This document shows, one piece after another, positions 5,760 through 9,904 of a stretch of DNA of 32,670 nt (its first letter is position 1; every line of letters begins with the position of its first letter). The stretch spans positions 1 through 32,670 of the IMG/VR virus record IMGVR_UViG_3300037189_019860. One strand, written 5' to 3'. The notes beneath the pieces are model-generated. The model worked only from the letters and a program-made list of their open reading frames with translations, did no database searches and was not told where the DNA came from. Source of the stretch: a virus. Position numbers and translations under genes: made by a program.

Positions 5760-6035
5760 ATGAGCCTCAACGACAAGCTTAAGGCTGCAGCTAATGAAGC
5801 TTCAGCTAAACTTTGTAAGCTAGCAATACTGCTTAATGGGTCAGAGCTTACTAATGATGAAAAGAAAAATCTAATCACCCTTCTTGAGGTCGATGACCGA
5901 GACCCAGCTCGGGTTCCTAGTTCAACAATCGGGCAAATTCTACGCGAAGAAGGCTATGACATCAGCAATAGTGCTGTTGACCGTCATCGCCGTATTCCGA
6001 AGTCCTGTGCCTGCAAAACAATAGGGAAGAAATAA
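5760..6035 (+). CDS. Small HTH-like DNA-binding protein of actinophage type
   Basis: 91 residues. An N-terminal helical part (SLNDKLKAAANEASAKLCKLAILL) leads into a compact C-terminal half with STIGQILREEGYDISNSAVDRHRR, which has the spacing of a helix-turn-helix: a short helix, a turn at the Gly, and a recognition helix ending RHRR. Small proteins ending in this RHRR motif are common in actinophages and are usually annotated as HTH proteins. It is preceded by AGGAG 4 bases from the ATG, and its stop overlaps the next start (TAATG). It could regulate this region or assist the phosphoesterase that follows. DNA binding is inferred from the fold pattern only. Confidence 0.65.
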   Translation: MSLNDKLKAAANEASAKLCKLAILLNGSELTNDEKKNLITLLEVDDRDPARVPSSTIGQILREEGYDISNSAVDRHRRIPKSCACKTIGKK

Positions 6036-7237
6036 TGGGACTAGCAGATCGTTTAGAAGCATTAGCTTCTCCAGGAAAGTCTGGTTCAGACTTAAAATCT
6101 TTAAATACTCCAGAAAATTGGCGTCCTCGAATGGACATCGATAGCGTTTCTGGAGGTTTTCTTATTTCTCAGGCTAGACCAGAAGGCGAATCTCTTGGTG
6201 CGAAAGAAGTACTAGAGGAATTCAATCTGAACCCTGAAGATTGGAATATAACTTCTGTAAGACTGGGCAAGTGGCAGAAGTATGATGGCGAGTATTTAGA
6301 GTCTCAGCGTGTAAATGTTGTACCAGCAGCAACTAGTTTGATAGAGCAGCTAGATGCTGAAAAGTTAATTGACGAAATTAAAAAGTGGCGTCCAGCTAAA
6401 GGGATCAAGCAAGCAACTGGTAGAGGATCTTTTGCTCTTTTCCCCGCTGACCAGCAGATCGGTAAAAAAGCTGGTGGTGGCGGTACTCAACAGTCAATTG
6501 ACAGAATTCTAGGATTAACAAATTCTGCAGTAGAACGTTTCAAGGGCTACCAAAAGATGGGTATGAATCTTGGCACAATTACTCTTGGACTTCCAGGTGA
6601 CCACGTCGAGGGTAACGTGTCACAAGGTGGGCGTCTTCAAGGATTAGCTGCATCTGATTTAGGTCTTACCGAACAGGTTCGAGTTGCACGTCGTCTGCTT
6701 ATGGCTCAGATTAAAGCACTGTCCCCTCTTGCAGAAAACATGGTAGTTCCAGTTATCAACGGAAATCACGATGAAACTGGCAGATATGTTGCAACGGATC
6801 CAGCTGATGGTTGGAACGTAGAAATTGCATCTTCCGTACAAGATGCTTGTGCAGAGAATCCAGCACTACAGCACATCAAGTTTCGCTATCCTTCATCAGG
6901 GCACCAGACTTTGGTAACAGAGATTTGCGGCACCCATCTCGGGATGTTTCACGGTCACCAGGCAAATCAGAATAGTATAGAAAAATATCTAGCAGGTCAG
7001 ACTCTAGGTCAGACTGCACTAGGTGGAGCAGACATCTGGGTGTCAGGACACTTTCACAATTTCCGTACAATGGATGTTAGTGAACGACTATGGGTTCAAT
7101 GTCCAACCACTGACCCAGGCTCTGACTGGTTCCGCGATAGGGCTGGTCACCAGTCTCGAGCCGGACTACTTACCATGGTATTTGGTGGAGATTACGATCC
7201 GCGTGAGAATATCAGCGTACTTTCAATAAAAGGATAA
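6035..7237 (+). CDS. Calcineurin-like metallophosphoesterase, MRE11/SbcD-like nuclease
   Basis: 400 residues. The metal-ligand motifs of the family occur in order: D139-x-Q141 (Gln in place of the usual His), GDH at 188-190, GNHD at 243-246, HGH at 306-308 and GHFH at 338-341. The N-terminal about 130 residues have no recognised motif. The family includes DNA exo/endonucleases (MRE11, SbcD) and other phosphodiesterases; phage versions are often annotated as MRE11-like. No SbcC/Rad50-type ATPase lies beside it, so it may act alone or with an ATPase outside the window. It is coupled by TAATG to the small HTH-like gene upstream and ends 2 bases before the next gene. Confidence 0.8.
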   Translation: MGLADRLEALASPGKSGSDLKSLNTPENWRPRMDIDSVSGGFLISQARPEGESLGAKEVLEEFNLNPEDWNITSVRLGKWQKYDGEYLESQRVNVVPAATSLIEQLDAEKLIDEIKKWRPAKGIKQATGRGSFALFPADQQIGKKAGGGGTQQSIDRILGLTNSAVERFKGYQKMGMNLGTITLGLPGDHVEGNVSQGGRLQGLAASDLGLTEQVRVARRLLMAQIKALSPLAENMVVPVINGNHDETGRYVATDPADGWNVEIASSVQDACAENPALQHIKFRYPSSGHQTLVTEICGTHLGMFHGHQANQNSIEKYLAGQTLGQTALGGADIWVSGHFHNFRTMDVSERLWVQCPTTDPGSDWFRDRAGHQSRAGLLTMVFGGDYDPRENISVLSIKG

Positions 7238-7239
7238 AC

Positions 7240-7989
7240 ATGATAATCAATCTATTTGGACTACCGGGTTCTGGAAAAACTACTCTTGCTAGAGAAATCT
7301 TAAAGCGTACTCCTGCTATCCACCTAAATGCAGACGAGGTACGGTCTGATTTAAGTATTGATCTAGGTTTTTCTCCGGAAGATCGAATCGAGCAAGCTCG
7401 CCGCATGGGAGCAATGGCTCGTCTACTTTCTGCTCAAGGGCATGTAGTTTTAGTAGACTTTGTAAACCCTACCGAAGCAACTAGAACTGCATTCGGTAAG
7501 GCTGACTTTGCTGTATGGGTAAATCGAATCAACTACAGTCGATTTGAAGATACAAATGTGCTCTGGGAGACTCCGGAAAAGTTTGATCTACAAATTATTA
7601 GTGGTATGGATTTGGACACAGAAGTTACCGTAGTGATGTCTGCAACTAAACTTCCAGATTGGAAGAAGCCAACTACCCTAATGCTTGGTAGGTATCAGCC
7701 GTGGCACGAGGGACACGATGCTCTATATGATGCTGGACTAGAGCGTACGTCTCAAGTTCTTATTGCTGTAAGAGATACCCAGGGCACTTCTGAAAAAGAC
7801 CCTTTAAGCCATGATCAGGTGGTTCACTACATCCAAAAGTATCGACCAGAAGCGATGATCATGAGAGTTCCCAACATTACAAACATTATTTATGGACGTG
7901 ATGTCGGATATAAGATTGAAAAAATAGAGCTTAGCCCGGAGATGCAGGAAATATCTGCAACCAAAAAGCGAGAAGAGTTGGGCATTTAG
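7240..7989 (+). CDS. Fusion of an APS-kinase-like P-loop kinase and a NadM-type nucleotidyltransferase
   Basis: 249 residues. Residues 1-135 are a P-loop kinase most like adenylylsulfate kinase: Walker A GLPGSGKT (7-14), the family segment DEVRSDLS..LGFSPEDRIEQARRMG (32-57) and a strand HVVLVDFV (68-75). Residues 143-249 are a nucleotidyltransferase with GRYQPWHEGH (150-159) and ISATKKRE (238-245), the two signature motifs of NadM/NadR-type NMN adenylyltransferases and related cytidylyltransferases. All key residues are kept in both halves. The C-terminal half is far too short for ATP sulfurylase, so it is not an ordinary PAPS synthase. The substrate cannot be told: NAD salvage, a sugar nucleotide or another small molecule are all possible. 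A good AAAGGA site at 7228-7233 precedes the ATG. Confidence 0.8.
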   Translation: MIINLFGLPGSGKTTLAREILKRTPAIHLNADEVRSDLSIDLGFSPEDRIEQARRMGAMARLLSAQGHVVLVDFVNPTEATRTAFGKADFAVWVNRINYSRFEDTNVLWETPEKFDLQIISGMDLDTEVTVVMSATKLPDWKKPTTLMLGRYQPWHEGHDALYDAGLERTSQVLIAVRDTQGTSEKDPLSHDQVVHYIQKYRPEAMIMRVPNITNIIYGRDVGYKIEKIELSPEMQEISATKKREELGI

Positions 7990-7990
7990 A

Positions 7991-8395
7991 ATGGCTCATC
8001 TGGATAATTTAGATGAGTCATATGTGCAGCATGCTAGAGAAGGTATTCGACTATCTACTAAACTGTTTTTAGCATCTATTGCATGCTTAATTCACTCTTT
8101 TTTCCCAGAACTGTTTGAGCAGACAGCCAGTAAAACAATGTCAACAGAACTACAGCGTTTTAAGAATAGGCTAACTAATACTAGCCACATTCAAGTCAGG
8201 TATAACACCAAAGTAGGGGATGGAAACCTATTTTGGCGAGTGATAGTAGATGGTAAGGAATCTCTTGCTAGTACTGTAGTTATTTTTGGAACTATATATG
8301 GTGAAGAAAGTGCTACTAAAGAAGGCAGAAAGCTTAACATGGCATGCGATGGCATAGCCACCTGGGACAACGATATGGTAGTTATAGAGGCATAA
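7991..8395 (+). CDS. DUF6356-like protein with an unknown C-terminal half
   Basis: 134 residues. The first about 60 residues (HLDNLDESYVQHAREG, then a hydrophobic helix around LFLASIACLIHSFFPELF, then TASKTM) match my memory of the small uncharacterised DUF6356 family, sometimes labelled capsule biosynthesis protein. The hydrophobic stretch at about 26-46 may insert in a membrane. Residues 65-134 look like a separate small alpha/beta domain with no motif I recognise. It starts one base after the kinase fusion and is coupled to the glycosyltransferase by TAATG, so the three genes are a unit. A role near the cell envelope would fit but is not demonstrated. Confidence 0.6.
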   Translation: MAHLDNLDESYVQHAREGIRLSTKLFLASIACLIHSFFPELFEQTASKTMSTELQRFKNRLTNTSHIQVRYNTKVGDGNLFWRVIVDGKESLASTVVIFGTIYGEESATKEGRKLNMACDGIATWDNDMVVIEA

Positions 8396-9465
8396 TGAAG
8401 GTAGCAGTTTACACGATAGCCCTGAATGAAGAAAAGCATGTTGAGCGTTGGTACAACTCCGTAAAGGATGCTGACTATATCTTAATTGCAGATACGGGGT
8501 CTACTGATAGAACAGTAGAGATTGCTAAAAGTCTGGGAATCAATGTAGTAAGTGTTTTAATTAAACCTTTTAGGTTTGATACTAGTCGTACTGCTGCACT
8601 GGCAGCTATTCCGGCTGACATTGATTACTGTATCTCGCTCGATATGGATGAAGTATTGACAGAGGGCTGGCGTTCTGACATAGAGACTTTGACCCTACTG
8701 GAACCAAATCAATCAGCAATTTTAAGAACTGTTTTGACATGGAACTTCAAAGAAGATGGTTCTCCAGGACTTCAATATGGAGCAGATAGAGTGCACTCCC
8801 GCTGGGGCGTTCGTTGGCGTCAACCAGCTCACGAGATCATTAGTACCTACGGGGACTACGAAGAAATTAGAGGTTCTGTTTCTTTCGGTATACATCACCT
8901 ACCTGATGACACAAAATCTCGTTCTCAATATATGGCAATGTTAAAAATGGCTGTAGATGAGAATCCGTATAGTGATAGAAATGCTTTTTACTACGCTAGA
9001 GAACTATACTTCTACGGACTATATGATCAGGCAGCTAGAGAATTTAAGCGCCACCTAAGCCTACCATCGGCCACCTGGGCCCCAGAAAGAGCAGCATCTC
9101 TTAGATATCTCTCCATCTGCGACCCTGCCAATGCAGAGCAGTATCTATTGAGTGCAGTTTCTACTGACAAGGGTCGTAGAGAGCCTAAGGTATCGTTAGC
9201 TCAACTTTATTATGATCGAGTGTCATGGGATGATTGCTATAAATGGTCATTAGAGGCTTTAGCTATTGAAACCAAACCACTGGACTATATGTGTGAGGAA
9301 TATGCATGGGATCACACACCATGGGATCTTGCAGCACTAAGTGCATATAATCTTGGTAAATATGATGAAGCTTTAAAATACGGTCTTAAGGCAGTGGAGT
9401 TAGATCCGACCAATGAAAGACTTGTAGCTAATTTAGAGTTTTACTCTAAGGCTTCTTCTTCCTAG
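8395..9465 (+). CDS. GT2-family glycosyltransferase with C-terminal TPR-like repeats
   Basis: 356 residues from the ATG at 8395. An in-frame start 17 codons upstream would lie within the previous gene and is rejected, because the GT-A fold begins right at MKVAVYTIALNEE. Residues 1-100 show the GT2 core: NEEKHVERWYNSV, the DTGSTDRT motif near 34-41, and DMDE near 83-86 as the metal/sugar-nucleotide site. Residues about 185-356 look like helical repeats, with a clear TPR near the end (NLGKYDEALKYGLKAVELDP). Two-domain GT2-TPR enzymes are known from bacteria and phages. The acceptor may be a surface polysaccharide, a virion protein or DNA. It ends 20 bases inside the convergent WhiB gene. Confidence 0.85.
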   Translation: MKVAVYTIALNEEKHVERWYNSVKDADYILIADTGSTDRTVEIAKSLGINVVSVLIKPFRFDTSRTAALAAIPADIDYCISLDMDEVLTEGWRSDIETLTLLEPNQSAILRTVLTWNFKEDGSPGLQYGADRVHSRWGVRWRQPAHEIISTYGDYEEIRGSVSFGIHHLPDDTKSRSQYMAMLKMAVDENPYSDRNAFYYARELYFYGLYDQAAREFKRHLSLPSATWAPERAASLRYLSICDPANAEQYLLSAVSTDKGRREPKVSLAQLYYDRVSWDDCYKWSLEALAIETKPLDYMCEEYAWDHTPWDLAALSAYNLGKYDEALKYGLKAVELDPTNERLVANLEFYSKASSS

Positions 9466-9904
9466 ATTCCTGAGCGTGAAATGCTTCAACCGCATTTGCA
9501 CTAGTTCTACTCTGCCAATTAAATCCACAATCTATGCATTCAACAACTTTCATAGTTGCCCATCGTCCCTTATTTGGGCGCTCTACTGTCATTGTCTTTA
9601 AAGAAGATGTTTTGGCTTTGCACATCGGGCATAGAGGGAATCTTTTATGACGCATTTCTTGACCTTCCCAGTTAACAGAGAGTGTGCGTCTTATTTGTTT
9701 AGGAGTTAGACCGCCCCAGATTCCCCAAATTTCTTTATTTTCTAGTGCATCTTTTGCGCATTGAGCTTTTACAGGGCATATTTCGCATAATTTTTTAGCA
9801 GCTACCTGCTGAGAGGGCTTATTAGCAAAGAAGCTATGAATATGCTCTCTATTTATAGGTTTAGAGCACTCGGAATTTTCATGCCATTCTGGAGAATCTA
9901 TCAA
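9446..9904 (-). CDS. WhiB-family protein with an extra C-terminal zinc ribbon
   Basis: 152 residues. Residues 1-75 are a WhiB domain: four cluster cysteines C13, C40, C43 and C49 (C-x2-C-x5-C at the end of the set), followed by the GIWGG turn at 61-65 and a basic QIRR segment. WhiB proteins bind a [4Fe-4S] cluster and act on transcription through the sigma factor. Residues 92-126 hold two further CxxC pairs (C92/C95 and C123/C126), a zinc-ribbon pattern not usual in WhiB proteins. The likely start is TTG at 9904, overlapping the stop of the upstream gene by 4 bases; no strong ribosome site is seen. It is the last gene of the - strand run and marks the host as an actinobacterium. Confidence 0.85.
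   Translation of the reverse strand: MIDSPEWHENSECSKPINREHIHSFFANKPSQQVAAKKLCEICPVKAQCAKDALENKEIWGIWGGLTPKQIRRTLSVNWEGQEMRHKRFPLCPMCKAKTSSLKTMTVERPNKGRWATMKVVECIDCGFNWQSRTSANAVEAFHAQESRKKKP

Follow-up and report, generated by a model that had tools for sequence, protein, structure and literature searches.

ATP sulfurylase, the enzyme for the first step of sulfate activation, has been described in two kinds, Sat and CysDN, and the animal PAPS synthases (PAPSS1/2) hold an APS kinase and a sulfurylase together. Fusions of a kinase with a nucleotidyltransferase also exist in other pathways, as in HldE and NadR. The literature that we searched, which excluded most subscription journals, gave no paper on the nucleotidyltransferase domain studied here, on a short sulfurylase, on a link of DUF2061 to sulfur metabolism or on PAPS synthesis by phages. 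We analyzed a stretch of viral DNA of 32,670 nucleotides (IMG/VR record IMGVR_UViG_3300037189_019860, here referred to as the window), in which one gene encodes an APS-kinase domain followed by a compact nucleotidyltransferase domain (NT). This fusion is most probably a compact bifunctional PAPS synthase whose NT serves as a short ATP sulfurylase, a role that we infer from genomic context. Moreover, the NT itself is likely to represent a third kind of ATP sulfurylase, derived from the NMNAT branch and present in phages, marine bacteria and haloarchaea, which would supply the initial step of sulfate activation in genomes that appear to be without it.

The open reading frame at 7240..7989 (+) starts with ATG and remains intact over 249 amino acids. 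It belongs to a tight cluster, lying 2 bases after the stop of an exonuclease-like gene (6035..7237, +; phrog_284, 1.6e-51) and 1 base before a gene for a small membrane-type DUF6356 protein (7991..8395, +; PF19883, 3.8e-16). The initial annotation had placed the frame exactly here and had quoted the motifs GLPGSGKT, GRYQPWHEGH and ISATKKRE, all of which are present; its description of an APS-kinase-like domain fused to a NadM-type nucleotidyltransferase also agrees with the profile searches and the model given below. At least 597 relatives of the fusion were confirmed in IMG/VR, including hundreds in aquatic phages, phrog_10255 matches the protein over its full length (2.2e-55), and full-length homologues are present in cultured phages, so this is not a chance reading frame. 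Among 51 diverse homologues, little or no variation is seen in GxxGxGK, GRxQPxHxGH, GRxVGY, AT and R. In the tree, the window protein falls within a phage-only clade, and cellular members fall in at least two other places. Megablast of the whole window against phages returned zero matches. Elsewhere in the window, a protein with collagen-like G-P-T-G repeats, probably a tail fibre, is encoded at 184-1554, upstream of the fusion and separated from it by only a few genes, and a WhiB-type protein (9446-9904, -; PF02467, 1.5e-15) suggests an actinobacterial host.

The kinase half is a lid-less APS-kinase domain that covers residues 1-124 (7240..7611, +), an assignment supported by Pfam APS_kinase, by Foldseek and by stand-alone versions, which end near residue 124. 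Pfam APS_kinase (PF01583) matches residues 2-84 (2.7e-17) with 63.6 bits against a gathering cut-off of 21.1, and the NCBIfam apsK equivalog (TIGR00455) gives 61.1 bits, below its cut-off of 138.7. The Walker A motif GLPGSGKT (residues 7-14; 7258..7281, +) has G7, G10, G12 and K13 invariant, and the likewise invariant D32, R35, F44 and R49 align with conserved APS-kinase residues. When aligned with the haloarchaeal proteins described below, the window kinase lacks the lid KARxGxIKxFTGID; in addition, its D-G-D-N motif has N30 in the position of the first Asp, with D32 kept. In some phages (L165-L170) the lid-less kinase occurs alone, without the NT domain.

The NT half, a compact HxGH domain and candidate ATP sulfurylase, covers residues 142-249 (7663..7986, +) and at about 105 amino acids is far shorter than NadM. 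It contains GRYQPWHEGH (residues 150-159; 7687..7716, +), with G, R, Q, P, H, G and H invariant; YGRDVGY (residues 218-224; 7891..7911, +), with G219, R220, V222, G223 and Y224 invariant; and ISATKKRE (residues 238-245; 7951..7974, +), with A240 and T241 invariant and S239 and R244 nearly so. NadM-type matches are weak, reaching about 21 bits over residues 145-212 against NCBIfam cut-offs of at least 127, and a Pfam search of the fusion protein found no PF01747 (Sat). The NT matches no sulfurylase family. Profile comparison with hhalign gave 99.1% for NadM and 1.4% for Sat. The NadM segment with the invariant N80 and W84, which we take to be NMN-binding, falls in an alignment gap of the NT, and the C-terminal helices of NadM are missing as well. 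Judged from this profile match and this gap, the NT descends from the NMNAT (NadM) branch but lacks its substrate site. We considered GRD as a Sat signature but dropped it as proof, since NadM-Nudix proteins carry K-D at a similar place.

The structure models agree with this division. AlphaFold2 folded the whole fusion as two domains with a mean pLDDT of 92.7, and the NT alone with 93.4. With the whole model, Foldseek ranked APS kinases first, with human PAPSS1 among the best matches, while the NT model retrieved NMNAT and PPAT structures first and its best PDB matches are NMNATs. The high PPAT ranks raised the logic of a CoA synthase (PPAT plus a 3'-OH kinase), which the genomic context does not support.

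Since the NT resembles NadM and hardly Sat by profile, its activity has to be read from its neighbours, and we further focused on cellular relatives. The OCS116 genomes, which are marine alphaproteobacteria, encode a canonical APS kinase (PF01583, 3.4e-64; TIGR00455 above cut-off) joined to the NT. A gammaproteobacterial MAG also has an APS kinase-NT fusion, and the kinase of the OCS116 and MAG fusions is canonical wherever it was scanned. Nine haloarchaeal plasmids carry a cysC-NT gene, and in 8/8 of the annotated ones a sulfotransferase lies upstream of it. As in the window protein, the kinase comes first; the haloarchaeal protein shares 34% identity in an alignment over the whole window protein, and TIGR00455 is above cut-off in all four proteins scanned. 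The plasmid operon reads sulfotransferase, cysC-NT and YqcI-YcgG (L216-L218, L220, L224-L227), and one guess for its product is a sulfated osmolyte such as sulfotrehalose.

Four streamlined alphaproteobacteria with genomes of 0.8-1.1 Mb, which look SAR11-like, have separate kinase and NT genes at the end of an operon. Its order is sirohydrochlorin chelatase, uroporphyrinogen-III methyltransferase (SumT), sulfite reductase, CysH, DUF2061, kinase and NT, with NCBIfam names taken from one copy (G272). The B. subtilis cysH operon offers a parallel. This is an operon of sulfate assimilation whose sulfurylase step is otherwise unfilled: Sat and CysD are both absent in three of the four genomes. Other patterns also occur: G044 carries Sat in addition to the NT operon, and CysD is present in G205 and G001 (Rhizobium); the Sat gene of G044 (C19, L207 1793-2857) adjoins NeuB-like and polysaccharide-type genes. 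In the literature, assimilatory sulfate reduction is described as incomplete in SAR11 bacteria (PMC5069961, PMC6018831). In a phylogenetic profile over 385 alphaproteobacterial genomes, 12 of which have true NT members, Sat and CysD were both missing from 3/5 of the CysH-positive genomes with the NT and from 9/154 of the CysH-positive genomes without it (p = 0.003, an optimistic value because the genomes are not independent and the three that account for the enrichment are closely related). Moreover, a kinase and NT gene pair adjoins a TPR-sulfotransferase in G398, and in a Rhizobium locus (L086) a Sulfotransfer_2 domain is fused in front of the kinase-NT member. Three other cellular members (G226, G401 and G135) have no sulfur neighbour.

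A plasmid of Microvirga lotononidis (L219) carries a kinase-NT gene followed by CysD (2e-138) and then CysN (1e-139). Here the kinase is intact and the NT motifs have decayed, with HESH for HxGH, GLD for GRx and SPT..Q for SAT..R. Since the NT alone has decayed where CysD and CysN follow, this one case fits the idea that NT and CysDN may do the same job. A sulfotransferase-like gene was read by eye upstream of the kinase-NT gene, as was a DUF2061-like stretch at the C-terminus of the CysN (7758-9347; 1zun_B match, 1e-139).

Phage neighbourhoods point in the same direction. In related phages, sulfotransferases of several families stand directly upstream of the fusion, and those found near it span PF00685, PF13469, PF03567 and a PF09037-like type. 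Sulfotransferase-motif genes occurred at 15/114 within three genes of the fusion versus 1/155 farther away (p = 1.5e-5). In a sibling phage (L013) with the same gene order as the window, a sulfotransferase-like gene (0.0016) stands between the exonuclease and the fusion. A sulfotransferase was looked for and not found in the 32.7-kb window, whose record appears to be a fragment, and the records of the window and of its nearest relative (L004) contain no Sulfotransfer_3 gene. The position after the fusion is taken by a DUF2061 cluster in 74/168 loci, or by DUF6356 as in the window, with representatives tested. These neighbours are probably membrane helpers, and a role in sulfate supply is our guess. 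As DUF2061 is present in the phage loci and in the SAR11-like operons, and a DUF2061-like stretch ends the Microvirga CysN, this family of small membrane proteins appears to be linked with sulfate activation. Genes for 2OG-Fe(II) oxygenases or Asp/Arg hydroxylases are also frequent in these phages, near the fusion and far from it alike (e.g. L031 531-1145 and L026 5441-6004).

On this basis, the fusion would act in two steps. The NT would use its HxGH site to convert sulfate and ATP into APS and pyrophosphate, and the N-terminal kinase would then phosphorylate the 3'-OH of APS to yield PAPS. Sulfotransferases encoded by the phage or by its host could then use this PAPS as their donor. The initial annotation had suggested a new activated small molecule as the product, which finds no support, as the phage, bacterial and archaeal contexts point to PAPS. 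It had also set PAPS synthase aside because the sulfurylase of that enzyme is much longer; the difference in length is real, but a short NT of the NMNAT branch may take over this very step.

Three other explanations were weighed. First, the kinase might phosphorylate, and the NT add a nucleotide to, some other compound such as a sugar, a phosphonate or a lipid head group for surface decoration. HldE and NadR follow this kind of logic, and glycosyltransferases lie near the fusion in some relatives and in the window, where a family 2 enzyme with TPR (8344..9465, +; PF00535, 2.1e-07; phrog_13126, 1.7e-106) is a possible partner in surface modification. We nevertheless regard this as improbable, because in two lineages this NT domain is paired with canonical APS kinases, and because the step left unfilled in the sulfate-reduction operon is precisely that of the sulfurylase. 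Second, a NadR-like pathway in reverse domain order could replenish NAD during infection, with the kinase turning nicotinamide riboside into NMN and the NT turning NMN into NAD. The homology of the NT to NadM, in profile and in best PDB matches, speaks for it, as does a NADAR gene (L001 7553-7996; L003 5553-5996) that immediately precedes the fusion in Casjensviridae phages; this gene hints at NAD chemistry and is unexplained by the sulfate reading. Against this, the N80/W84 segment is deleted, the kinase is an APS kinase and canonical in OCS116 and haloarchaea, the neighbours are sulfur genes, and 12/13 genomes with the NT have a NadD-type match of their own, 7 of these over cut-off; NAD salvage is thus quite unlikely. 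Third, the kinase could make PAPS from host APS with an NT that is only regulatory or inactive, as the kinase-only phage relatives and the decayed Microvirga NT might suggest, but this is very unlikely, since HxGH, GRxVGY and ISxT..R are invariant across very diverse members and thus indicate constraint of a catalytic type.

If the reading as a compact PAPS synthase is true, there exists a short and overlooked route of sulfate activation, and genomes classed as incapable of using sulfate or of making PAPS, including those of small marine alphaproteobacteria, may have been misjudged. Phages would carry a complete PAPS supply, often beside sulfotransferases, and phage cysC-type genes that have been read as mere APS kinases may encode entire PAPS synthases. 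It would also be a surprising enzyme origin if an NMNAT-derived domain had taken the place of ATP sulfurylase without being homologous to it.

The fusion can finally be compared with the known systems. NadR has the NMNAT first and the NR kinase second, whereas the window protein begins with an APS-type kinase, a contrast that had already been drawn from the sequence alone. NadM shares the motifs GRxQPxHxGH, NPF/DPL and ISxTxxR with the NT, but the NT lacks the N/W segment and the C-terminal helices and has sulfate genes as partners. CysC and CysNC APS kinases have the Walker A motif and the D32-R35-F44-R49 pattern in common with the window kinase, which differs in its missing lid, in N30 for the first Asp and in its fusion to the NT instead of CysN. 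PHROG 10255 covers the whole length of the fusion, but it is named only as a kinase, with the NT half and its role unrecognised. The animal PAPS synthase shares the kinase-first order, the APS-kinase fold, an HxxH nucleotidyltransferase in second place and, as proposed here, the product. It differs in that the NT of the window is only about 105 amino acids and has no recognisable relation to Sat by profile, its kinase has no lid, and the entire fusion measures 249 amino acids against 630 residues in the PAPSS1 chain of 1x6v. What would be new is the sulfurylase, as a short, NMNAT-derived enzyme that annotation pipelines miss.
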